From a virus, in the IMG/VR virus record IMGVR_UViG_3300017756_000042, positions 1 through 37,432 of that record: a stretch of 37,432 bases of DNA, one strand, 5' to 3'. This document shows positions 1,565 through 36,260 of the stretch, in pieces. Position 1 is the stretch's first letter. Each line of letters starts with the position of its first letter. The notes beneath the pieces were generated by a model. That model did no database searches, was not told the DNA's origin, and saw only the letters and a list, made by a program, of their open reading frames with translations. The position numbers were made by a program, and so were the translations under genes.

Positions 1565-1677
1565 CGACGATCAAAACCATTGTGCTTAATGTTGAGGACA
1601 TCGCTGACTTTTACGTGTGGCGACTACTGAACCTACTGGGCGAGCATTGGCATGGCCCTGTGGAGGTGGTACAATGA
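1561..1677 (+). CDS. Hypothetical 38-aa protein
   Basis: ATG at 1561 overlaps the upstream stop (ATGA), with AGGGGGGTGGG just before it. The frame stays open to TGA at 1675-1677, which overlaps the ATG of the methyltransferase-like gene at 1674. The peptide is mixed hydrophobic and aromatic, with no motif. The two exact overlaps support translation, if only as a coupling peptide for the next gene. Confidence 0.45.
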   Translation: MTTIKTIVLNVEDIADFYVWRLLNLLGEHWHGPVEVVQ

Positions 1678-2318
1678 GGGTACTGGTAGCCTGTGAGTAT
1701 AGTGGCAAAGTGCGTGAAGCGTTCCGAGCCAAGGGGCATGATGCGTGGTCTTGCGACCTGCTACCTGCTGATGATGACTCACCGTATCACATTCAAGGGG
1801 ATGTGCTTAATGTGCTTGAGCAGGGATGGGATCTGATGGTGGCTCACCCACCATGTACCTACCTCACAGTAGCGGGGGCACGGTGGCTGTATCACCCAGA
1901 TGACAAGCACCTACCTACCAAAGACCGTAGGCCACACCCCAACTACCCTAACCGATTACAACAACGACAGGAGGCCATCGACTTTGTACAGGCTCTCATG
2001 GATGCACCGATACCACGTATTGCCATTGAGAACCCTGTCTCGATGATTTCCTCACTCATTCGACCTGCTGACCAAAAGGTTCAGCCGTACCACTTCGGAC
2101 ATCTTGAGCGCAAGTCTACGTGCTTTTGGCTCAAGGGACTGCCCTTGCTAAAGCATGTGACCGATCTGGAGGCCGAGACGATGGCTCTCCCACCCAAACA
2201 ACGGGACAGGCTTCACTACCTGCCTCCGTCGCCTGATCGATGGAAGTTGCGAAGTGAAACATTTCAAGGGATAGCCGACGCAATGGCTGACCAATGGGGG
2301 GTGTTAGAATGGCTATGA
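1674..2318 (+). CDS. Phage-type DNA cytosine methyltransferase-like protein
   Basis: The 214-residue protein begins MRVLVACEYSG, an AdoMet-binding motif I of the C5-methyltransferase fold. It has HPPC at residues 58-61 in place of the usual PCQ loop and IENP near 118-121 in place of ENV. This matches a compact family common in phages and usually annotated as DNA cytosine methyltransferase. It lacks the long target-recognition region of Dcm enzymes, so its specificity, or whether it methylates DNA at all, is unclear. The start at 1674 uses the ATGA overlap rather than an in-frame start at 1617. Confidence 0.8.
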   Translation: MRVLVACEYSGKVREAFRAKGHDAWSCDLLPADDDSPYHIQGDVLNVLEQGWDLMVAHPPCTYLTVAGARWLYHPDDKHLPTKDRRPHPNYPNRLQQRQEAIDFVQALMDAPIPRIAIENPVSMISSLIRPADQKVQPYHFGHLERKSTCFWLKGLPLLKHVTDLEAETMALPPKQRDRLHYLPPSPDRWKLRSETFQGIADAMADQWGVLEWL

Positions 2319-7415: not shown

Positions 7416-7670
7416 ATGGGTAAAAAAACAATTATTAGATGGAAAAACTTAGCATACAAGTACCTGCTCGAAAACGGACCATGTACTGCCGAACACTTAC
7501 TAAGCGCAATTCAGCACCGCTTTATGCCTACTGGTGTACAGCAGGTGACACAACAGTTCTTGCGTGATCCTAGATTCAGGCAACAGGACACAACCAAAGG
7601 TTCGTTTCACAGCGGAGCCCACCACTACAAAGTGCTTGAATGGGTAGCAGTCGAGGGGGTGGAGGAATGA
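7416..7670 (+). CDS. Winged-helix protein, 84 aa
   Basis: The start at 7416 lies 2 nt after the helicase stop, with GGAGGAATAAAT before it. The sequence runs LAYKYLLENGPCTAEHLLSAI, then a helix ending in FLRDPRF, then a wing with SFHSG and a closing strand HYKVLEWV. This is the same plan as the protein at 10527 (EHGPCTREEVAAHL, LMSKNPQ). It probably binds DNA; a helicase-loading or regulatory role is inferred from position. The C terminus is acidic, and its stop overlaps the methyltransferase start (ATGA). Confidence 0.65.
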   Translation: MGKKTIIRWKNLAYKYLLENGPCTAEHLLSAIQHRFMPTGVQQVTQQFLRDPRFRQQDTTKGSFHSGAHHYKVLEWVAVEGVEE

Positions 7671-8560
7671 AGATTCGGAACGTGGTAGCGCCTTTTGATG
7701 GTATCTCGTGTGGCCGACTGGCTTTAGAGCGAGCAGGTATCGAGTTCGATAACTACTACTCGTCTGAGATAGACAAGTATGCCATTGAGATTGCTGATAA
7801 AAACTATCCTGACAACATACAGTTGGGTGACATTCTCAACTGGCGTGACTGGGATCTGGAAAATGTCGATTTGATTATGGGTGGATCTCCCTGTCAAGGT
7901 TTTTCCATGGCGGGCCAAAGGCTCAACTTTGATGACCCTCGTAGCCGTCTGTTCTTTGACTTTGTAGACCTTGTGAAACACTACAAGCCGAAGTATTTCT
8001 TATTGGAAAACGTAAGGATGCGAAAGGACATTCAAGATGCCATATCAACCATACTTGGAGTGCAACCTATCCTGATCAATTCAGGTCTGTTGTCAGCACA
8101 AAGCAGGGATAGATTATATTGGACAAACATTCCCAATATCACCCAGCCGAAGGACAAGGGTATCTATCTAAAGGACATCGTTGAAACGGACATAGAGGAT
8201 GTTAGAGGTGGGGACTTGCAGGAATTCTTTAGTCAAAGGGTAGGTGTACTTTCGCCAAGAGGACTGTGCCACATAGGTACAGCCGACCTGAAAGCAATAG
8301 AGTCTTTGAAAAGAGTGTACCACATTGACGGCAAAAGCCCAACACTTACCACGAGTATGGGTGGGCACCGGGAAGCCAAGGTAGCAACAAGTGAAACAGC
8401 GTGGCGAAAACTCACACCACTGGAGTGCGAGCGACTACAAACTCTTCCTGATAACTACACAGAAGGAGTAAGTAACACACGTAGATACAAGGCCATTGGT
8501 AACGGCTGGACTATTGATGTAATATCCCATATCCTCAAGCATATGGAGGTGAGTGAATGA
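7667..8560 (+). CDS. dcm: DNA C5-cytosine methyltransferase
   Basis: A 297-residue enzyme of the Dcm family. Motif I is FDGISCGRLALERAGI (residues 10-25), the catalytic loop GGSPCQGFS has Cys76, ENV is at 114-116 and QSRDRLYW forms motif VIII. A short target-recognition segment follows, then motifs IX and X (RKLTPLECERLQ, then KAIGNGW). All catalytic elements are present, so it should transfer methyl groups from AdoMet to cytosine in duplex DNA. The start at 7667 uses the ATGA overlap. No restriction endonuclease lies next to it, which fits an orphan viral modification enzyme. Confidence 0.92.
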   Translation: MKIRNVVAPFDGISCGRLALERAGIEFDNYYSSEIDKYAIEIADKNYPDNIQLGDILNWRDWDLENVDLIMGGSPCQGFSMAGQRLNFDDPRSRLFFDFVDLVKHYKPKYFLLENVRMRKDIQDAISTILGVQPILINSGLLSAQSRDRLYWTNIPNITQPKDKGIYLKDIVETDIEDVRGGDLQEFFSQRVGVLSPRGLCHIGTADLKAIESLKRVYHIDGKSPTLTTSMGGHREAKVATSETAWRKLTPLECERLQTLPDNYTEGVSNTRRYKAIGNGWTIDVISHILKHMEVSE

Positions 8561-19222: not shown

Positions 19223-19375
19223 ATGAACAAAATACTATGCCCTGAGTGCGAACACGATGCCTTTGATACAGATGCCATGATGCTTGTGACAGGACAAGTA
19301 GGCGGCCCTCATGAAAAGATGATGGTAGTCCACACCTGTCATGCGTGTGGTCACAAGTGGAGGGGTCAGGCTTGA
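19223..19375 (+). CDS. TFIIS-like zinc ribbon, 50 aa
   Basis: The frame from ATG 19223 to TGA 19373-19375 encodes 50 residues with CPEC at 6-9 and CHACGHKW near 40-47. This is the CxxC-x(30)-CxxCGxxW layout of TFIIS and RNA polymerase subunit M-type ribbons. It has its own TATA box 26 nt upstream. It could interact with RNA polymerase, though no catalytic acidic hairpin can be confirmed. The next gene starts at TTG 19372, overlapping the stop. Confidence 0.65.
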   Translation: MNKILCPECEHDAFDTDAMMLVTGQVGGPHEKMMVVHTCHACGHKWRGQA

Positions 19376-19941
19376 ACGTAGGCTTCAAGAAAGACGGTAC
19401 CCCTCGACTATCAAAAGCAATAGACAAAGCCGTGATGAGTCATGCGTCTGTTGAGTGGGGTACTCCCCCAGATCTCTTTGAGGCAATCAGCGAATCTGTT
19501 GGTGGTTTTGATCTGGATGCCGCGGCTAGCGACAAGAAGCACGTGTGTGATAACTACTTCACGGCTGAGTCCGATGCCCTGTCGCAAGAGTGGCACGGTA
19601 AAGTGTGGCTCAACCCCCCGTTCGGTCACGGTGTAGAGCAGTGGTTCGAGAAGGTGGTGAACGAGGTTCACACCAACGCTGATTCTGTACACGTATTGAT
19701 CCCTGCGAGGACTGATACTCGATGGTTCCACGAGTGGGTTATGCCATTCGCTACTGAAATTTACTTCTTCAAAGGGCGATTGTACTACGTGAACGAAAAC
19801 GGTGAGAACAAAAACCCTGCGGCATTCCCGTCTATGCTGTGTGTATTCAAGAAAAAGACAGGCGCATGTGGTGATGTCCCAACAATCAAAGCATCCCCAC
19901 GTGATGGAAGTGCGTTCAAGGAGGCGGTGGAGTGGCTTTAG
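19372..19941 (+). CDS. dam: Dam-type DNA N6-adenine methyltransferase
   Basis: About 189 residues from TTG 19372. The key motifs are EWGTPPDLFEAI, FDLDAAAS (AdoMet-side acidic motif) and the catalytic LNPPFG, plus FFKGRLYYV. This is the phage Dam family that methylates adenine N6, often at GATC. TTG 19372 lies in a TTGA overlap with GGAGGGG upstream. GTG 19345 and ATG 19435 are alternatives; the latter still keeps the whole domain. No partner restriction gene is near. AAGGAGG at its 3' end is the ribosome binding site of the primase. Confidence 0.88.
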   Translation: MNVGFKKDGTPRLSKAIDKAVMSHASVEWGTPPDLFEAISESVGGFDLDAAASDKKHVCDNYFTAESDALSQEWHGKVWLNPPFGHGVEQWFEKVVNEVHTNADSVHVLIPARTDTRWFHEWVMPFATEIYFFKGRLYYVNENGENKNPAAFPSMLCVFKKKTGACGDVPTIKASPRDGSAFKEAVEWL

Positions 19942-20995: not shown

Positions 20996-21721
20996 ATGCT
21001 CGTGGTAGACGACCGTGAAAATGACGTAATTAAACACAAAATCATAGCCCAAATGGGCGAATATGCCAGCGGTGGCATTGTCAAGATCAAACGACTAAAA
21101 TCAGCCGACTACATCATTGGCGACATAGGCATAGAAGCCAAAGAAATTAACGACTTATACCACAGTATTTTGGGTCATGGTCGATCTCGTACCATAGTTG
21201 GGCAACTTTATGATTTGGTAGAGAACTTTGAACGTCCTATGCTGGTCGTTTATGGTACAAAATTGAAGCCGTTTATAGTAGGCAACCGCAGACCAAGCAG
21301 ACAAGAGTTGGCTATCGAAATGAAGCGCATGCAAGCAGTCATAAGGAAGTTCAAACAACATCTGTTTGTAAAATTTCCCACAATCCAGTTCATGCAACTA
21401 GGGACAATGGATGAAATGGTTGACTGGCTTCACAGTATGCACGACAATATGCGTGTTCGACGCATCAACACCAGTGAGCCAAAGGAGTATGCCCGGAAGA
21501 ACGTGACTACTGATCCGAGAGTTGCGGCATTATCGGCTCTCGAAGGCGTATCTGAACGTGCGGCGCATGATTTACTTACCGAGTTCGGATCGTTACCAAG
21601 AATACTGCGGTCAAGGACTAGCCAGCGTCAATTGATGGAGATTGATGGCATTGGTCGCAAGCGAGCAAAGACCATCCTCCGCCTAAGAGAACGCTATCCA
21701 GATCAACCTGAACGATCTTAG
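20996..21721 (+). CDS. ERCC4/XPF-family structure-specific nuclease with HhH domain
   Basis: A 241-residue protein with VVDDRE at residues 3-8 and GIEAKEINDL at about 45-54, the ERCC4 active-site strand where the usual ERK reads EAK. A helical region with SRTIVGQLYDL follows. A tandem helix-hairpin-helix domain occupies about 165-235 (LEGVSERAAHDLLTEFG, IDGIGRKRAKTIL). This is the core of archaeal XPF/Hef nucleases, cutting branched or flapped DNA. It is the last gene of the plus-strand block and its stop is interleaved with that of the hub gene. Confidence 0.88.
   Translation: MLVVDDRENDVIKHKIIAQMGEYASGGIVKIKRLKSADYIIGDIGIEAKEINDLYHSILGHGRSRTIVGQLYDLVENFERPMLVVYGTKLKPFIVGNRRPSRQELAIEMKRMQAVIRKFKQHLFVKFPTIQFMQLGTMDEMVDWLHSMHDNMRVRRINTSEPKEYARKNVTTDPRVAALSALEGVSERAAHDLLTEFGSLPRILRSRTSQRQLMEIDGIGRKRAKTILRLRERYPDQPERS
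21718..21721. other. Interleaved stop codons of the two convergent blocks
   Basis: TTAG at 21718-21721 contains TAG on the plus strand (21719-21721, end of the ERCC4 nuclease gene) and TAA on the minus strand (21720-21718, end of the hub gene). There is no intergenic space, so any terminator of either block must lie inside the opposite gene. Confidence 0.9.
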
Positions 21722-24700
21722 TAAGATAAAGACCCTGATTGGGATGAACCAGCCACGGAACTTTTATCGCTCGATACTTGGATATTGTTGAGGACTACAC
21801 TACCGTATTGGGCGGTGTCACCGTCAGTACCAGCAGTTCTTTCGAGAGTCACAATCAATGTGTTACCCCCTACCTCAGCGCCGTCTAACGAACCACTGAA
21901 TAAGATAACATTCTTGTCATCTCCAGATGTCAGCGTCACTGTTCTTTCATCGAAAGCACCAGTGTTTGGGCACTCAACAGTAACATACAGAATAGAATCC
22001 CCTGTTGTCGCTTTCATAGTTGCTCTTGCAGTAACACTGACTTCTTTGCTTGTAACCCGATCAGGGACGCGACTGTTTATTGTAAATTTGCTGTGAGGTG
22101 ATGAGTTATCAACAGCACCCGGAAACACCATTCCGTCACTACTCATGATTGCATCTCCAGACGAAGGCGCAATGTGTGAGTCAAGCCCATCCAACCCAGC
22201 AGTATCTCTTGGTTTAGCCGAAGGTTTTGTTTGACCAAGCACACCGAACGCCCCTCCAGTGACACTATCATTATTGAAATTCATAACGCCCTTCAATCTG
22301 TTATTTATTCCGTTTGACAATTGATTTGACCCTGCTAACACTGAGCGATTTTCTGATTGTGTGGTTTGATCTGGGATGAATGACGAAGTTCTGTTGATCG
22401 GCACTAAACTATCACCAAGCACTAAGCCGGGTTGTGTATCTCCGAATCCTACTTGATTAGCCCAAGCACCATCGGAGGGACTGTTGCTTTGTTTGGTGTA
22501 TGCTTGACTTGACTTTTGAGAACCAGCACTTGTATGTGTTCCGGGTTGCCTTCTACTAACACCTCCCTTACTAGTAGTGGGAATAATGTAAGACGCAAAG
22601 TCCTTAGCGGCTCTCGATACATCTCTTTCGAGTGTAAAAGTAACCTTCTCCACATTTCTGCCGTCTATACTCCAACCGATCCTCTTTACTACCAGTGGTT
22701 CATTTGTCATAGCGAAGTTAGTATCAGTATAACTAACAGTGGTGGAAGGAATAAAGTTGATGTCATCGGTGATGTGCAGACGTGGCGCAAACCACTCAGC
22801 AAGCCGTGTCCAGTAAGCGTTTTCCAAATTGTAGGTAGTGCCACCCTTACCAAACTTTCGACATCCCAACGGGAATATACTGTCATCGTTGGTAGTGCCC
22901 CATGTAGTTACACCTGTGATGTCTCCAGAAGAATACCCTAAGTTGGATGAACCACAGCGGTTTCGACGCAGGGCTAGCAAGTAATCATAATTAACAGATA
23001 TGGTAATCATCTCGCTACCAGTTTGATCGGGCCAGTATGAAATCGGTATTGCTATTTCATAGAAGCCGTTGCCGTCAATCTCACAAGATGTAGATCCATC
23101 GGTAGCCAAAGTAGGAGTGAATATAGCACCGTTCGGGGCAACTCCAAATGATACGTTGAAATCATAATCAGCAAGGTACACAACGAAGCGTTGTGTGGAC
23201 TCCTGTGCGTGTGCGCCCTGATCGGCTAGGTCCACAAAGACTCTCAACTTACCATCCCCAAGAGTATTGTTGCTGGCAGGACTTCTGTTAGCAGTCTTGG
23301 GCATACCTTTTGGTATATGGACTACTTGGACAGCATAACTGATGGAGTTGGCACCATAGAACCCGTAATAATCGTCATAGGTATCTGTACCTGCGGAAGC
23401 GTTAGGTGTATCAGCACCAGTTTCAGAACCATCAAGGGCGTTGACTCTACCCGGAAACAGATTGCCTCCATGTAGCCCTGTCCAAGCGTAACCTAGTGTT
23501 GCGCTGTGAGTACTTTCAGTAACGGTTCTTGAAACGTCAGCGATGTAGCCGTAGCGAGCATCATCAAGCATGACTCCTTTGTCACCGTAGAAGTTGTGTG
23601 CGTCAGAAAAACGTGTGACCTCAGCCGTGATTGACAGTGGCGCTGACTTCAACTTCTCATATTCGGCTTTGGCCACAGCCAGTGCTTCGGATTGACTGGT
23701 AATATCAGGCATGTTGATAATCTCCCACCGAGGGCTAGAGTCAAGAGAGACAGTAGGGTAATCTACAAATGTAGATGAGCCACCGTAAAACACTCTTACA
23801 TTGGTGATTTGATCGGAGGACTGTGTTGATAGCGATGAAGTCCTAAGATTGTTGCTGTTGAAAACAAAACCACTGCCGTATGTAGGTCGATACGAAGGCA
23901 TAGAATCTCGACCCATAAGCCATGAGAATGAAGAACGAACTGAGTAATCTTCTCCTATTCCGCTAGAAGCCTCGGTTGTGGAGAATATGTTGGCGATAGT
24001 AGTGTTTCGGCAATCGTTTATTGATCCGTAGGAATCAAGTCGATTTACTGCTCGATATGAACCCAACGTAGATCCAGATGCATTAAATCCACTGAACGCA
24101 AACTGTATTGAATCTATGGCAGGGGTGGCTGTAATTGTAACAGTTACCTCAGAATTAGCAACATTTAACTTGGCGCTTGATTTGATAGTGATTTGCTGCC
24201 CTATCACAAGATGATGATTACTAGCATAGGTTTCTGCTGTAACAGTTCCACTTGATTCAGTCATGGTTTTGAAATCCCCAGCCTGACCCGGAAGTGAAGC
24301 ACTTTGAGGGTTAGTTGACATATTCTCAGACACTGGGATTGTGTTGATGTCCCACATACCATACAGTTTTGTTTGTTTGAGCCATGTTTCAGTCAAACAA
24401 TCCATCCAAGATACACGGAACTTGTCATGATCAAAGAAGGTTAGGCTGCCTTTATTCTTAACAAAGCCGTTAATTTCCATAAGCAAACGCATAGGGAAAA
24501 TGTTAGCCAGCCCAAAGTGTACTCGAGCATCAGGGTATGTATTCTGAGCATCAGACTGAGTAGTGTCTATAGTGACTTCTGAAAACACTCTACCCTTTGC
24601 TTGCATCAATGTTTCGGCACTGTTAGCACCACCATATCCAGATCCATCCCACTCACCTGAAGCACCACCAAATTCATTTGGGTTGCCTAAGAATGATAAG

Positions 24701-27700
24701 GCCTCAACCCTAAACCCATTTGGTATTTTGATATTGATGGCCCCAGCCGTAGTAACAGCGTCAGTACTGTCCTCCAAATTGATAACAAAATAAGAATAAG
24801 TACCAGCAATCGGAGAAGAAGAAGAGATTGTTCCGTGTTTGATAATGGTGTATTCTCCGTCAAAAGAAGCACCACTGCTCATTGTTGGCGGTGCTGCTGT
24901 CCTAGCCTCGATCTCAATAGTTTGCCCTGTTCGGAGAGTAGCGAAGTATCTCATATCGTCATAGGGGAGAATGTTCTGTACTTTGATCATCATCTGACCT
25001 GTTGCGGTTACTTCCCCTGTTGACGTAAAGTCAGAATTGACTTGAGCAAAGAACCCATTGTTTGATGCATGAGCATAATCTGTAAAACTTTGTAACTCAT
25101 CACTAACCACATTGAGGTGCCAAATCTTTTTCTTTTCGTTCGATATGATCTGGCCTACTACACCTGCTGTGCCTGTGCCTATCCCAGTCGTTACTGCTAC
25201 TATACTTGGATCGTCTAAGTAGACGATGCCGTCGCCTACCTGAATATCAGTCAGAAGTCCACTATTCTTACTGTGTAAGGATTTGTAGTTTGCATTCCAA
25301 GAAGCCGACTCGTCTAAGTTGTATGGGGACGTGGAAGCCCTGTCCCAGTAGTTGTCGATCAAGACTGGGAACCCTTCGGTTTCTACCAAGTAGTCCCCGA
25401 TTTCCTTGCGACCACCGCTTGTTTGACCTGCTTGACCACCGTTGCTTTGTGTGTTCAAGTTAAAGAATCTCGATCCGTCTACAATAACAAATGCCCCTGC
25501 TTTGTCTTCCCAATTGTGGTATTTGCTGTTGGACTCGCTGTTCGATCCACCACTGACCGCACTCCAAGCGTTACCTGTTATTGGATCAGTGTTGCCCATT
25601 TCCCAAAAGTTGACATCTTCTCCTATCGCTAAATCAGTAAAGATTTGCCTTTCTTGAGAGTTAGAGATATTTTCATCCGCATAAGACAAACTTAGTTCAT
25701 AGTTCCCTGCATATGGCGCAAGCAAACCATACTCTTGTTTTCGATACCCAGCGTCAGCGTTTGCTGTGCCATCGTTGCGAGCATCAGCCCATAGAATCCA
25801 AACGTGTTTGAAGTCGTTGTCTAATTCTCGAATATGAACTAAGCGGTCAGCAAGGGTGCCAGTCAAGTGGTTCTGTTGGAAGAAGTTAGTGGCAGGTAGT
25901 GTAATTGTAGTGTTGCCATACTGCATGACACCCGGATAAACACCTGCTATGGTTTGTTTTTTTGTTCCGTTGACAGCGATACCGCCATCAGGAATGCCAG
26001 TTTGTCCCATAACATCATCATAGAATGAAAAGCCTATTCTTCTTTGGGACAATGTTTTTCGACTAAAGGCACCTGTGACAATACTTGACTCGGTGGTTCT
26101 TGCGCTTGTCCTCACACTAGGAGCAACATATTCTTTAAACCTAACACGGGCAGTGTAAGTAGTCGTTCCATTCGCAAGGGATCTTTGTTCTTTAGTACCC
26201 AACTCGAACTTCCAACAAGCGATGCCGCTCACAGTACTACTTGTGACGTTGACAGCGCAGTATCGACCGTTTAGATTGGGAAACCTTGTTGACTTTAGTC
26301 TAAAGTTTTCGGCGTAGGCGTTTGCGATACCAGTCTTTGGTATGTGGGCTACGAAGTAGTAGTAGCCTCCTTCGGGATTAGTCACTGGTATAAGAGTCGA
26401 ACCTTGACTTGTTCTAAAATACTTTGCCACGTACTTAGTCTCTAACTTGAGAATGTTGGCTGAACTTGCTACGGATGCACCAGTGGCAATACCACTGTCT
26501 ACAAATCCATCAGTCGCTCTAAATTCAAGACCAAAGATACTGGATGTGTCGAAGACTTCATGGATTCCTTGCACCACCATACTTGTGTCCCCAACGGTGA
26601 AGTTGGAAGCCAACTGCATGCTGTGATCCGTTGGTTTAATTCGTGCGAACATATAGTTGAACCACGCTGACTTCGGTAGGTCTTGCATCCATCGGCTGTG
26701 TAGTGAGCGATGTTGAGCATCGCTTGTAGCGTGACCTGCTGTGATAGCGTCATCCCAGTCATCATATGCGTCATTTGGGCCGATAGTATCTTCGTCGTTG
26801 TAGACTTGAATAGCATGCGATGTTCTGTTTCGCATTCGAGAATCAAGATGCTTGGTGAATGTGCCAGATCCATCTACAACTTCGTTGAATCCAAGCGTAG
26901 CGTTTGCCCTTTGGTTGCGTGTAGCACCCATATAATAGACATCTAACTTGCGCTGCGATTCACTGCGGTTGTAGGCAATCTGCGATGTCTGCGTTCCTTC
27001 GTCGGAAGTACCCATCTCCCAAGTAGGCAGTTGTCTATCTAAATTGGAAAAATAATCACTGGCTTGTATTGAAATTGTAGGGGTTCTATTTGTAGCGTCC
27101 AATTTGTAATTCATACCCGTAACAGAACCTCGCCAGATCGGGCGGTCACAGGCGTTTCTAAACAACAACAAAGACCAGTTGGCGTAGGAGTTTTGATTAA
27201 ACATAGGCATCAGTGTCAACTGTTGATCGTCATCAATCACGTCTATATTAAGAGTCGAAACTGAATTTGAACCAGACTGATATGACATCTTGACGGCGGG
27301 AGGCATATCTACCCCGCTCGGGTGATCGTTGAGAGGTCGGATCATACCTACGCGGTCGATAAGGACTGCGATTTTCTTTTGTGCGCCTTTGGCTTGTAGT
27401 TCCCATCCGTACATATCAGCGGCCTCAAATTGATTGCCGTCAGCCTTGTTTCCTATCGCACCCGCAGTTACAATCTTTGTGCCGTTTTTGTAAAGGTCAT
27501 AAGTACCGTTGGTGTAATCAAAAACAAAGTCATAGTCGATCCACACATCAGACATACTTGGTTGAACATAAGCACCAAGATTACCAGTGGTGACAGTAGT
27601 AACCGTGTTTTGAATAAAGTCAGCAGGTGCAATCTCCAACTCTACTGCAGCAGCACTGTAACTTGTGTCACCACTACTGGTGCTTGTCCACGCTGTACCC

Positions 27701-28542
27701 TCACAACCAACACGTAACTTGAGGTATGGGGTAGTAGTAGTAGCAAGTTCAAGAGGGGCAATCCTGATCGTAAAGATGTCATTATCACCTTTGCTGTTGA
27801 GCGTTCCGTTGTAAGCAAGCATAGGCTTGTATGTACTACTGTTGTGGTAAATCTCTTGTACTAAAAACGGTTGACCGCTTGGCGATTCAATAGGGTACAA
27901 ATAACCACTAACACCAGTGGTACTTGTGTGGGTCTTGATACCCGCATAAGTCCCCGCTGTATGAGTTCTAACCATAGTGGTCGGGGTACTCGCAGTAGTT
28001 GGCAAACCCGCACTGTTGTCCAACGCACCCGAGTTGTTTTTGGCAGGGTAGTTCATAGTGTCTCGGCCAAATGTAGAGTCAGTAGAACCTGTTGCCGCGT
28101 AGTATGTGCATGATGTGTCATGGGCGTAGGTAAATCGAAGATAACCTTCGTGTGAATCTGTAGTAGTAGCGGCATTATACCGCTGTCTGTTGGCATTTGT
28201 TAGTGAATCTGGGTATTGGGGGATTGCCAACCCCTCATACTTGTTTCCTCCAGATCGTCGGTTCTGATCGTAGCCAAGCCATTCGTTTAGCCCGGAGTTG
28301 AATTTACCCCCTTCTTCCGTCGTCAGTGCGTTGTTGGCTAATTGCGCTCGTTCTACCATAGCGTATGCGTAGCGAGGGTTTAGGTTAGCCCACCCGTTGA
28401 TCGGGTTTCCTTGGTGAGACTTGTAATTGTAGTAGGTAGCAGTTGGTGTGTTGAGATCGTCGGGGACTGTGCGAGCCCCCATGAAGTCGTCGTAATACCC
28501 TGCCATCCACACTGTCAATTTTCTATCTACTGTCCTCGTCAT
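21718..28542 (-). CDS. Giant tail hub / host-recognition protein, 2274 aa
   Basis: This follows the tape measure gene, where siphoviruses carry distal-tail and hub proteins. Residues about 225-410 resemble a concanavalin/LamG lectin domain (YDFVFDYTNGTYDLYKNG). At 415-520 is a hub-like beta domain (LNIDVIDDD, IWRGSVTG). Another hub-like part near 1540-1720 has SEALAVAKAEYEKLKSAP and GDKGVMLDDARYGYIADVS. The roughly 1000 residues between are beta-rich and may be inserted adhesion domains. A Ser/Gly/Asn-rich linker covers 1990-2140, then a terminal beta-sandwich. It should form the tail tip, bind the host surface and close the tube. Start 28542 follows AGGTGAG. Confidence 0.75.
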   Translation of the reverse strand: MTRTVDRKLTVWMAGYYDDFMGARTVPDDLNTPTATYYNYKSHQGNPINGWANLNPRYAYAMVERAQLANNALTTEEGGKFNSGLNEWLGYDQNRRSGGNKYEGLAIPQYPDSLTNANRQRYNAATTTDSHEGYLRFTYAHDTSCTYYAATGSTDSTFGRDTMNYPAKNNSGALDNSAGLPTTASTPTTMVRTHTAGTYAGIKTHTSTTGVSGYLYPIESPSGQPFLVQEIYHNSSTYKPMLAYNGTLNSKGDNDIFTIRIAPLELATTTTPYLKLRVGCEGTAWTSTSSGDTSYSAAAVELEIAPADFIQNTVTTVTTGNLGAYVQPSMSDVWIDYDFVFDYTNGTYDLYKNGTKIVTAGAIGNKADGNQFEAADMYGWELQAKGAQKKIAVLIDRVGMIRPLNDHPSGVDMPPAVKMSYQSGSNSVSTLNIDVIDDDQQLTLMPMFNQNSYANWSLLLFRNACDRPIWRGSVTGMNYKLDATNRTPTISIQASDYFSNLDRQLPTWEMGTSDEGTQTSQIAYNRSESQRKLDVYYMGATRNQRANATLGFNEVVDGSGTFTKHLDSRMRNRTSHAIQVYNDEDTIGPNDAYDDWDDAITAGHATSDAQHRSLHSRWMQDLPKSAWFNYMFARIKPTDHSMQLASNFTVGDTSMVVQGIHEVFDTSSIFGLEFRATDGFVDSGIATGASVASSANILKLETKYVAKYFRTSQGSTLIPVTNPEGGYYYFVAHIPKTGIANAYAENFRLKSTRFPNLNGRYCAVNVTSSTVSGIACWKFELGTKEQRSLANGTTTYTARVRFKEYVAPSVRTSARTTESSIVTGAFSRKTLSQRRIGFSFYDDVMGQTGIPDGGIAVNGTKKQTIAGVYPGVMQYGNTTITLPATNFFQQNHLTGTLADRLVHIRELDNDFKHVWILWADARNDGTANADAGYRKQEYGLLAPYAGNYELSLSYADENISNSQERQIFTDLAIGEDVNFWEMGNTDPITGNAWSAVSGGSNSESNSKYHNWEDKAGAFVIVDGSRFFNLNTQSNGGQAGQTSGGRKEIGDYLVETEGFPVLIDNYWDRASTSPYNLDESASWNANYKSLHSKNSGLLTDIQVGDGIVYLDDPSIVAVTTGIGTGTAGVVGQIISNEKKKIWHLNVVSDELQSFTDYAHASNNGFFAQVNSDFTSTGEVTATGQMMIKVQNILPYDDMRYFATLRTGQTIEIEARTAAPPTMSSGASFDGEYTIIKHGTISSSSPIAGTYSYFVINLEDSTDAVTTAGAINIKIPNGFRVEALSFLGNPNEFGGASGEWDGSGYGGANSAETLMQAKGRVFSEVTIDTTQSDAQNTYPDARVHFGLANIFPMRLLMEINGFVKNKGSLTFFDHDKFRVSWMDCLTETWLKQTKLYGMWDINTIPVSENMSTNPQSASLPGQAGDFKTMTESSGTVTAETYASNHHLVIGQQITIKSSAKLNVANSEVTVTITATPAIDSIQFAFSGFNASGSTLGSYRAVNRLDSYGSINDCRNTTIANIFSTTEASSGIGEDYSVRSSFSWLMGRDSMPSYRPTYGSGFVFNSNNLRTSSLSTQSSDQITNVRVFYGGSSTFVDYPTVSLDSSPRWEIINMPDITSQSEALAVAKAEYEKLKSAPLSITAEVTRFSDAHNFYGDKGVMLDDARYGYIADVSRTVTESTHSATLGYAWTGLHGGNLFPGRVNALDGSETGADTPNASAGTDTYDDYYGFYGANSISYAVQVVHIPKGMPKTANRSPASNNTLGDGKLRVFVDLADQGAHAQESTQRFVVYLADYDFNVSFGVAPNGAIFTPTLATDGSTSCEIDGNGFYEIAIPISYWPDQTGSEMITISVNYDYLLALRRNRCGSSNLGYSSGDITGVTTWGTTNDDSIFPLGCRKFGKGGTTYNLENAYWTRLAEWFAPRLHITDDINFIPSTTVSYTDTNFAMTNEPLVVKRIGWSIDGRNVEKVTFTLERDVSRAAKDFASYIIPTTSKGGVSRRQPGTHTSAGSQKSSQAYTKQSNSPSDGAWANQVGFGDTQPGLVLGDSLVPINRTSSFIPDQTTQSENRSVLAGSNQLSNGINNRLKGVMNFNNDSVTGGAFGVLGQTKPSAKPRDTAGLDGLDSHIAPSSGDAIMSSDGMVFPGAVDNSSPHSKFTINSRVPDRVTSKEVSVTARATMKATTGDSILYVTVECPNTGAFDERTVTLTSGDDKNVILFSGSLDGAEVGGNTLIVTLERTAGTDGDTAQYGSVVLNNIQVSSDKSSVAGSSQSGSLSY

Positions 28543-32468: not shown

Positions 32469-32720
32469 TCATATAAAGCCACGACTCTTCAATAATTCGA
32501 CGGCTTCCGAATCACTTAACTCTTGCTTCTGTGCGGATCGACGTTGTTTGTTGCGGGCCATCATGGCCGCCCCATCCTTACCGTCGCCTTTTGCTTCTAC
32601 GATCTGGTCTTGTATTTCATTCAATACTGCCAGATCATATTCAAGTTGATTCATTCCCCCCTCTACTGTGTATTTTTCTAACAAATCACTTGGCATAACA
32701 CCTTTGAAAGAGGAACACAT
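32469..32720 (-). CDS. Tail assembly chaperone, second (T) part, probably reached by -1 frameshift
   Basis: An 83-residue frame if read from its own ATG at 32720, but open upstream through 32747, where the slippery site of the preceding gene lies. A short acidic/polar helix (EYDLAVLNEIQDQIVEAKGDG), an Ala/Arg-rich segment and a C-terminal LKSRGFI follow. Position directly before the tape measure gene, small size and the frame relation all match the T part of gpG-T. It should be made mainly as a C-terminal extension of the 113-residue protein. There is no good ribosome binding site at 32720. Confidence 0.7.
   Translation of the reverse strand: MCSSFKGVMPSDLLEKYTVEGGMNQLEYDLAVLNEIQDQIVEAKGDGKDGAAMMARNKQRRSAQKQELSDSEAVELLKSRGFI
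32471..32478 (-). promoter_or_regulatory. TATA box for the tape measure gene
   Basis: On the minus strand CTTTATAT at 32478-32471 is centred about 27 nt before the start codon at 32447, followed by GGGGCGGTTAGC. It lies within the last codons of the chaperone GT frame and resembles CTTTATATACTGG upstream of 19223. Confidence 0.5.
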
Positions 32721-32740
32721 AGCAGGGGCAACTTTGGCGA

Positions 32741-33082
32741 CTAATCCAAAGGGACTGAACCCTCAGCATCTCCGCCTCTAATGAAGTCGAAGATTAGCAT
32801 TAGATCCATGCTGTCGATTAGGTTTATGTCCAAGTCGTCAATCAAACATGGAGGAACAAGTGTTCTGATTTGTTGATCCATACCTGCGCCAGCGTCGTCA
32901 AGAGCATCCATGAATTCTTCTTGTTGCTCATCAGTCCATTCAGTTTGGTTTGCACCAAAATGCTTGAACTTTCTAAATGTTTTTGCTAGGATGGTTTCAA
33001 ATCTCAACCGTTCCATTCCAGATGCTTGACGCACCCATACCTTTTTGCTTCCGATTTCAAACTGTTTTTTCAGTATCGCCAT
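32741..33082 (-). CDS. Tail assembly chaperone, G part, 113 aa
   Basis: The protein starts at 33082, overlapping the end of the Lys/Pro-rich gene by 26 nt. It has a beta-rich N terminus (KQFEIGSKKVWVRQ), then helices (MERLRFETILAKTFRKF) and an acidic helical C-terminal half with LVPPCLIDDLD and SMDLMLIFDFIRGG. This layout is typical of small siphovirus tail chaperones that precede the tape measure gene. It ends at TAG 32743-32741, right after the slippery heptamer. The major product should be this protein, with a minority extended into the T frame. Confidence 0.75.
   Translation of the reverse strand: MAILKKQFEIGSKKVWVRQASGMERLRFETILAKTFRKFKHFGANQTEWTDEQQEEFMDALDDAGAGMDQQIRTLVPPCLIDDLDINLIDSMDLMLIFDFIRGGDAEGSVPLD
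32747..32753 (-). other. Programmed -1 frameshift site CCCTTTG
   Basis: On the minus strand the zero-frame codons GTC CCT TTG GAT TAG contain the heptamer C CCT TTG, a canonical X XXY YYZ slippery site, two codons before the stop. After a -1 slip reading continues GGA TTA GTC and is open through the ATG at 32720 to the stop at 32469. The fusion would be about 203 residues. Confidence 0.75.
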
Positions 33083-33266
33083 TCTTTTTCACACTCTTCT
33101 TTGCTTTGCTTTTCTTTGCTTTGGTTGGCTTAGCCTTTGGCTTAGCCTTTGGAACCGCTTCTACTACGGGTTCCACTACTGGTTCTGGTACTGGTTCGGG
33201 TTCTGACCCGATCAGGCCCAGTCGAATGCTTTTCTTGCTTGGTTTTGATCCCTTAACTCTCTTCAT
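33057..33266 (-). CDS. Low-complexity Pro/Glu/Lys-rich protein, 69 aa
   Basis: The sequence is almost entirely low complexity: a basic start (MKRVKGSKPSKKS), an EPEPVPEPVVEPVVEAV stretch and a KAKPKAKPTKAKKSKAKKS stretch. The DNA shows matching short direct repeats (GGCTTAGCCTTT around 33126-33150). GAGGTGATTAA lies directly before its ATG at 33266, with an ATTATTT about 26 nt upstream. It could be a disordered tail or DNA-contacting protein. It overlaps the chaperone start by 26 nt. Confidence 0.6.
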   Translation of the reverse strand: MKRVKGSKPSKKSIRLGLIGSEPEPVPEPVVEPVVEAVPKAKPKAKPTKAKKSKAKKSVKKNGDTEKTV

Positions 33267-34614: not shown

Positions 34615-35700
34615 TCATCTGTGAAGCATTGACAATTGGCGCATATAAGTCAATTCCATGCGGTGAACACACACCACTTCATCATCATCCATCTTGGTGT
34701 CCAAAGACAGGATGTAGTTGGTCAGACTGTCAGTTGTCCCGAGCAGCCCTGTGGTTGTGTACAGTTCATCGAATGCATCACCAGCAATCTCAATACCTGT
34801 GCGGTATGCGTTTTTGTAATCTGTACCCCGAGTTGTAATAAAAAGAATGACTGTGAAATTTTGTTCGATTCTCGATCCGCCTAATGCTAGAAACGCAGGT
34901 GAGTCTAACTGTTTGAGAATGACGTGAATACTTGGTGGGGCAATCCGTGAAATCATTTGTGATGAGATGTCATACCCGTAGATAATTGACGAGTTATCAA
35001 CGAAGTTCTTAAGGTAAAATCGTCGGCTATCTTTCAAGCGATTGACGATAGACAAACCTATGCGTAGTAGTGAATCACTGACGAACGGGGATGTCGATAG
35101 TTCGTCGGGGCTGAAAGCACCCTTCGTTGTGACGTAGACGTTGTGCCATGTGATCTGGCCATCAGTGTTGCCCCATGATATGCTTTTACCAGATCCACTT
35201 GCGCCAGTAACCGATAGGTAGTTGACTGCGCCATTATCATCTTCGACAATTTCACGCATGTATAGACGAGCGTTGCCTGATGCGTCGAGTGTGAGTCGAA
35301 GCATAACAGGGACTGGTTCAAAACTATCAGCCTGTTTTAGATCCAACTCTCTTGTCTCTATGCTGGTAGCGCCAACCAATCTTAGTGTTTGGTCGTTGCC
35401 TGTAGACTCAACGTGTACTTTGTGTGTGCCGTTATCAAGCGTCATAAGGACTGTGTTATCAGCGGGTGCTGTGTTGTACTTGAAGCATGTGACCATAGTG
35501 TAATCATTTGTAGCAGGTGTGATTGACCACGTTTGACCACTACCCACACTTGAGATACGCCAAGAGGATTGGACTTCTGCGCCGTCGCTACCTGTGCCAG
35601 CCAAGGTAAAGGATTCATTGTCCTGTCCTTGTGTCAAGGCTGACGGATCTTCACCGTTCATACGGCTTGTCCAGTATTCATTTACTGTCGCTATTGCCAT
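34615..35700 (-). CDS. Lectin-like (LamG/ConA) domain fused to probable tail terminator, 361 aa
   Basis: The start at 35700 lies in a TGATG overlap with the upstream gene; ATG 35715 is the alternative. Residues about 1-215 show a jelly-roll lectin pattern: TMVTCFKYN, LMLRLTLDASGNARLYMRE, ITWHNVYVTTKGAFSPDEL. Residues about 215-361 contain a segment with SIHVILKQLDSPAFL, FTVILFITTRG, GIEIAGDAFDELYTT and LSLDTKMDDDEVVCVHRMELTYMR, fitting a tail-terminator fold. Its position between the gp10-like neck protein and the tail tube supports that. A glycan-binding domain on the terminator would be exposed at the neck. Confidence 0.6.
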   Translation of the reverse strand: MAIATVNEYWTSRMNGEDPSALTQGQDNESFTLAGTGSDGAEVQSSWRISSVGSGQTWSITPATNDYTMVTCFKYNTAPADNTVLMTLDNGTHKVHVESTGNDQTLRLVGATSIETRELDLKQADSFEPVPVMLRLTLDASGNARLYMREIVEDDNGAVNYLSVTGASGSGKSISWGNTDGQITWHNVYVTTKGAFSPDELSTSPFVSDSLLRIGLSIVNRLKDSRRFYLKNFVDNSSIIYGYDISSQMISRIAPPSIHVILKQLDSPAFLALGGSRIEQNFTVILFITTRGTDYKNAYRTGIEIAGDAFDELYTTTGLLGTTDSLTNYILSLDTKMDDDEVVCVHRMELTYMRQLSMLHR

Positions 35701-36260
35701 CACATACCACCCCATTCGCGGTTAAGAGCGGAGACAATAGCCTCTTCAAATTTAGGTTCTGCTCGTTCAAGAGTACCACTAAGCCAGCCCATAGGTTTTA
35801 TGCCGGGGTGTCTCATATTGCGACCAGTCTTAGCGTTGATAAAGCCACCGCTCGGGCCCCAAGATTTGGCGTTTGTAATAGTCTTAAATGTCCACGGGTA
35901 TTCAAACGAAGCCATACCATACTCAAGATACTGTGCTAACTTACCACCTCGAGAACCCTCAACACCACCCTGTTCTATGGGATCGCTACCAAACCTAACA
36001 ACTGCCCTGCCTCCTTCATCTTCACCGAGTTCTATGACTAAAGAGTCAGCAACCTTTCTTGCCATGAATCGGTGACGTACATCAGCACCACTGTTTAATT
36101 CTCTTTGTGTAACAGGCAATTCAACACGCAATACGTCTTTAATTGCTTCGGCCATAATAGCACCTGCGGTTCTATCCATCTCAGCAAACTTGCTATACAT
36201 ACGCTGATCGTCATAAGTTACACGAACAGCGACTGCGCCATCTTTGCTTATATTGTACAT
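35700..36260 (-). CDS. HK97 gp10-like neck / tail completion protein, 186 aa
   Basis: The C terminus HPGIKPMGWLSGTLERAEPKFEEAIVSAL resembles the conserved end of HK97 gp10-type proteins, which join head and tail. The N-terminal half has VRVTYDDQRM and a helix rich in Met/Ala (AGAIMAEAIKDVLRV). Length and position between connector and terminator are as expected. ATG 36260 follows GGTGGTTAA. The stop overlaps the next start (TGATG). Confidence 0.72.
   Translation of the reverse strand: MYNISKDGAVAVRVTYDDQRMYSKFAEMDRTAGAIMAEAIKDVLRVELPVTQRELNSGADVRHRFMARKVADSLVIELGEDEGGRAVVRFGSDPIEQGGVEGSRGGKLAQYLEYGMASFEYPWTFKTITNAKSWGPSGGFINAKTGRNMRHPGIKPMGWLSGTLERAEPKFEEAIVSALNREWGGM

Follow-up and report, generated by a model that had tools for sequence, protein, structure and literature searches.

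The tail assembly chaperones G and GT of phage lambda come from two overlapping frames between the tail tube and tape measure genes, with a −1 slip site of the form X_XXY_YYZ a short way ahead of the first frame's stop codon and no separate start for the second. Chaperone frameshifts of this kind are known from tailed phages, following the work of Xu, Hendrix and Duda (2004) as summarized in a later review (PMC5009743). G/GT shifts have also been predicted in the haloarchaeal siphoviruses HVTV-1, HCTV-1, -2 and -5, and Hardycor1 (PMC5009743, PMC8211752, PMC7911831), with G_GGA_AAT as the predicted site in Hardycor1 (PMC7911831), and a +1 shift has been proposed for HF1-like viruses (PMC7230728). 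One archaeal −1 case has been demonstrated, in the fucA1 gene of Saccharolobus solfataricus (De Lise et al. 2021, PMC8211752). Here we analyze the viral DNA of IMG/VR record IMGVR_UViG_3300017756_000042, positions 1 to 37,432 (37,432 nucleotides (nt), the whole of which we call the window), in which two small overlapping frames, A and B, meet at the heptamer C_CCT_TTG on the minus strand. Comparison of sequences leads us to conclude, with high confidence, that −1 frameshifting at this heptamer is by far the best explanation of the locus.

The A/B locus resembles lambda G/GT in the position of its two overlapping frames, in an X_XXY_YYZ site close ahead of the first stop, and in a second frame without its own start. 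Unlike lambda, where the slip site is G_GGA_AAG, the heptamer here is C_CCU_UUG, and the proteins are weakly similar to known chaperone families. With the haloarchaeal siphoviruses the locus shares a predicted −1 shift in the tail chaperone genes of tailed viruses that are, in this case, probably archaeal, but it has another heptamer and belongs to a different, uncultured lineage. The fucA1 gene likewise undergoes −1 recoding at a heptamer and is decoded by archaeal ribosomes. However, it is a cellular enzyme gene with an A_AAA_AAT site, and most of its relatives are full length without a shift. No case of CCCTTTG or CCCUUUG at a tail chaperone was found in a search confined to an open-licence library. 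The predicted recoding is of a known kind, at a heptamer that differs from the archaeal-virus cases on record.

Conservation of the heptamer

Gene A (113 codons) ends on the minus strand with GGT TCA GTC CCT TTG GAT TAG (32761-32741). The −1 frame stays open from 32747 until the TGA that occupies 32471-32469, a run of 92 codons that starts GLVAKVAPAMCSSFKGV and ends just ahead of the tape measure gene. The initial annotation had placed the heptamer before the stop of a 113-residue frame, with the −1 frame open to 32469, and its coordinates and frames were correct on re-reading. In-frame X_XXY_YYZ heptamers occur 34 times in the 10,827 codons of the 33 window genes, which puts the chance expectation for the final five codons of a given gene at about 0.016. 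Gene A is the sole gene among the 33 with such a heptamer near its stop.

Four scans of IMG/VR viral contigs, with repeats removed, gave 27 further distinct junctions at which both frames are readable, or 28 with the window. The A proteins of these relatives are 42-73% identical to that of the window by global alignment, and the lowest tblastn match is 40%. Codon statistics were taken from 24 non-redundant sequences including the window, which form 19 clusters when A is grouped at 80% nucleotide identity. A match to a Thermomonas contig (L056) was discarded as spurious, with no chaperone frame and no heptamer at the junction.

An alignment of homologues, as suggested in the initial annotation, found the heptamer and its frame relation in 27 of the 27 further junctions, while the flanks vary. 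The heptamer reads CCCTTTG in 25 and CCCTTTA in two, the closely related loci L046 and L048. The stop codon of the zero frame varies among TAG, TGA and TAA, at 10, 13, 16, 19 or 22 nt from the start of the heptamer. The conservation extends to synonymous positions. The proline codon of the heptamer is CCT in 24/24 non-redundant sequences, the leucine codon is TTG in 23/24 and TTA in 1/24, and the codon preceding the proline ends in C in 24/24 (GTC 16, ATC 6, CCC 2). Among the 35 columns of A and B in which the amino acid is conserved, codon entropy averages 1.34 bits and is lowest at this proline and leucine (0 and 0.25 bits). Three other near-invariant proline columns use all four codons (1.72-1.90 bits). 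Over five codons, the ratio of observed to expected synonymous change is 0.14 at the junction, against 0.81 for A overall and 0.90 for B overall. A naive calculation that treats the sequences as independent gives a log10 probability of about −34, an overstatement given their shared descent; the sound evidence lies in the contrast with neighboring columns. By this comparison, the conservation record of the heptamer is unusually clean.

How would the two products arise? Most ribosomes would finish gene A and release its 113-amino-acid product. A minority, with tRNAs on CCU and UUG, would slip back by one base at C_CCU_UUG onto CCC and UUU, enter frame B, and make an A-B fusion of 204 amino acids (112 + 92), with the junction ...SVPL-GLVAK... 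if both tRNAs slip. Slippage of the P-site tRNA on CCC, in place of tandem slippage, is an unlikely variant of this mechanism. CCC is slip-prone on its own, and other heptamers are known to use both routes (for example fucA1 in E. coli, PMC8211752), but the second codon of the heptamer is fixed along with the first, which argues that the A-site tRNA takes part.

Coding signal and start codons of frame B

Frame B is under coding selection from the junction on. Residues A7, P8, C11, S12, K15 and G16 are invariant in the 28 sequences, and codons 2-9 have mismatch rates of 0.33, 0.18 and 0.65 at positions 1, 2 and 3, the third-position bias of a coding pattern. There is no conserved alternative start. 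Thirteen of 24 loci have no ATG, GTG or TTG within the first five B codons, and five of the 24 have none within the first 20, though these codons are conserved as protein. Along frame B, such a codon is first met at codon index 2 in nine loci, at 9 in the window, and at 16-74 in nine others. B is conserved ahead of its first start codon, and the start positions are scattered or absent across loci. Independent initiation of B fails as an explanation because conservation of B sets in with its very first codons, whereas many loci have no early start codon.

This bears directly on the idea that reinitiation or internal initiation, once A has terminated, yields B as a protein of its own, with the heptamer playing no role. 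We regard that idea as very improbable. It draws some support from nine of the 24 loci (L002, L003, L004, L007, L015, L017, L018, L019 and L020), where a GTG or TTG in the B frame overlaps the A stop as GTGA or TTGA, the usual form of a coupled start, and from the ATG at 32720 in the window. However, no overlapping start exists in the window, in L005, L027, L029, L039, L042, L043, L046 and L051, or in others, and the five loci without a start in the first 20 codons still conserve those codons as protein. The window ATG has no Shine-Dalgarno sequence (its upstream context is GTCGCCAAAGTTGCCCCTGCT-ATG), and most relatives have leucine at that position. A separate B would also leave the synonymous fixity of CCT and TTG unexplained. 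Reinitiation is at most an extra route in some relatives. The initial annotation had seen no good ribosome binding site for the small downstream frame, and the sequence before 32720 bears this out. What it named as evidence against a shift did not appear among the relatives: the heptamer is intact in all of them, and B has no conserved start or ribosome-binding site.

A second ATG inside B, at 32654 on the minus strand, comes right after AGAGGGGGGA. It is probably not a start, because the purine run encodes a conserved Gly-Gly and the methionine is not conserved.

In a single contig, a gene split by an error of sequencing or assembly, or by decay into a pseudogene, would look the same, but this is refuted by the 27 further junctions on independent metagenome contigs, with the same frame relation and with differing stops and distances. 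Two other candidates were rejected. If the heptamer were coding in both frames, B would have to begin ahead of it, and in no locus does any of the starts listed lie upstream of the heptamer (in L003, the B frame opens only 9 nt before the last base of the heptamer). Transcriptional slippage was set aside as the site lacks a homopolymer run. Frameshifting at C_CCT_TTG is the reading that we carry forward.

Gene neighborhood and presumed chaperone identity

The A/B frames (32469-33082) sit downstream of the tail tube gene and directly upstream of the tape measure gene (Table 1). On the minus strand, the order is neck, one gene without an assignment, tail tube, two short frames, A, B and tape measure. 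The order of tail tube, chaperone pair and tape measure is that of lambda G/GT. A G/GT-type tail assembly chaperone pair of a tailed virus (Caudoviricetes) is the best explanation of the locus. If the lambda model applies, the role of A would be to coat the tape measure protein, and that of the B extension to bring in tail tube subunits.

Table 1. Features of the window discussed in the text, with the evidence for each
Feature	Coordinates	Strand	Evidence
Slippery heptamer C_CCT_TTG, candidate −1 shift site	32747-32753	-	Direct reading; conservation across 28 distinct junctions
Gene A, zero frame, 113 amino acids, presumed gpG-like tail assembly chaperone	32741-33082	-	Precedes tape measure gene; weak PHROG chaperone matches; HK97 2ob9 best VIA row
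Frame B (−1), 92 amino acids after shift, presumed gpT-like extension	32469-32747	-	Open frame; coding-pattern conservation from junction on
Zero-frame stop TAG, 10 nt from heptamer start	32741-32743	-	Direct reading
Tape measure protein gene, 1297 amino acids	28554-32447	-	phrog_5448 E 5.9e-12; PF10145 E 2.8e-13
Tail tube protein gene, 362 amino acids	33478-34566	-	phrog_290 E 1.8e-24; PF18906 E 8.1e-13
Neck protein gene	35700-36260	-	phrog_5
Predicted DNA methyltransferase	1617-2318	+	phrog_757
Predicted DNA methyltransferase	7640-8560	+	phrog_116
Predicted DNA methyltransferase	19345-19941	+	phrog_111

Two PHROG families of tail assembly chaperones give weak matches to gene A (E 0.011 and 0.026), and among the 28 A relatives the best match to phrog_344 has an E of 0.017. 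Several BFVD matches are named tail assembly chaperone, with E values of 0.018 or worse, and a sequence comparison with the PDB gave no match of note for the A protein. An AlphaFold model of A (pLDDT 85) has the HK97 chaperone 2ob9 as its best row in VIA (Z 4.8, root-mean-square deviation 3.5 over 79 residues), but the identity is 14% and this Z lies in a range where unrelated folds also appear. In Foldseek, 2ob9 ranks third for the same model (E 0.5). We regard a tail chaperone fold as likely for A. The profiles of A and B are unrelated to each other.

Two neighboring frames deserve mention. A short Lys/Pro/Glu-rich frame at 33057-33266 on the minus strand overlaps the start of A by 26 nt, and several relatives have a similar basic stretch ahead of A. 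Downstream of the tape measure gene, a frame of 2274 amino acids (21718-28542, minus strand) has no Pfam or PHROGs match; by position, it would be a tail tip or fibre protein.

RNA structure near the heptamer

Folding covered simple hairpins and was scored against synonymous shuffles. A 3′ hairpin of similar form begins about 6 nt after the heptamer in nine of the 24 lineages (z −2.3 to −4.8), and L044 has a weaker one (z −1.8). The nine carriers are the same nine loci in which GTGA or TTGA overlaps the A stop. Covariation of the hairpin in an 11-sequence subset was no better than in shuffled sequences. A consensus structure across all loci was rejected: in the RNAalifold model, CCUUUG within the slip site pairs with CAAAGG further downstream (eight pairs, one compensatory), and this pairing is no evidence of structure because the downstream bases encode the invariant Lys-Gly. 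Upstream of the heptamer, a Shine-Dalgarno-like stretch is present family-wide at −8.3 kcal/mol, against −7.3 for the synonymous null, and 1.5% of draws reach it; the window itself has no excess of this element over the null. As stimulators of the shift, the hairpin and the Shine-Dalgarno-like stretch are hints only.

Several observations weigh against frameshifting at A/B. First, the support is comparative. Second, the last base of the heptamer is G (UUG), which lies outside the classical eukaryotic consensus. This is not exceptional, because PRFect finds all four bases at each of X, Y and Z in the joined genes of phages (PMC10885494). Third, the window has no significant simple 3′ hairpin at the usual distance of 5-9 nt (z +2.0). 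Finally, sequence comparison places A in a family with little confidence (E 0.01 or worse), and frame B has no informative match. The initial annotation had held that every element of a programmed −1 shift matches; this fails for the RNA 3′ of the site in the window. Its main point, the shift, is supported by the comparison across relatives, and for us, as for its author, the event is an inference.

Virus lineage and host

The initial annotation had spoken of an archaeal host, which is probable and is our leading guess. The DNA polymerase B of the window matches haloarchaeal viruses, at about 23% identity along 88-95% of the protein. The virus also encodes a clamp loader, with T4-like phages among its matches, a processivity factor and a Sak4-like annealing protein. 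A protein of a Pelagibacter phage shares 61% identity with one of the methyltransferases. No tRNA and no provirus were found.

Ten sister contigs of 33-69 kb (G001-G010) carry the same polymerase at 46-75% identity, and the lineage is therefore a real one. The terminase of G001 matches phiH and bacterial phages alike (22-29%), and a chaperonin, as an archaeal marker, is absent from the sister contigs. Annotated phages yielded no relatives for A, for the tail tube, or for the portal of one sister contig.

Two further observations concern these genomes. At about 2495-2545 on the plus strand of the window, CCTATAAATAGGG lies some tens of bases ahead of an ATG that is preceded by AAGGAGGAATTGAA; it resembles an archaeal TATA box and is a single instance. 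In G001, locus L059 (2350-5307, minus strand) encodes a 985-amino-acid protein with amidoligase-like and class II glutamine amidotransferase-like domains.

Significance

The A/B junction is a well-supported predicted recoding site in viruses for which our searches turned up no close relative with annotation. For annotation, B should be joined to A and not called as a separate gene from the ATG at 32720. The 28 junctions form a natural series, with one slip site and a differing 3′ hairpin. If the host is archaeal, the locus would extend the few predicted archaeal G/GT shifts beyond the haloviruses and would offer a clean sequence for tests in an archaeal translation system. Tentatively, and with slightly less than even confidence, we suggest that tailed viruses of archaea, in one large uncultured lineage, rely on a deeply conserved C_CCU_UUG site, and that the hairpin has been gained or lost among them while the slip site stayed the same, so that archaeal ribosomes may shift at this site with differing RNA structure or with none.
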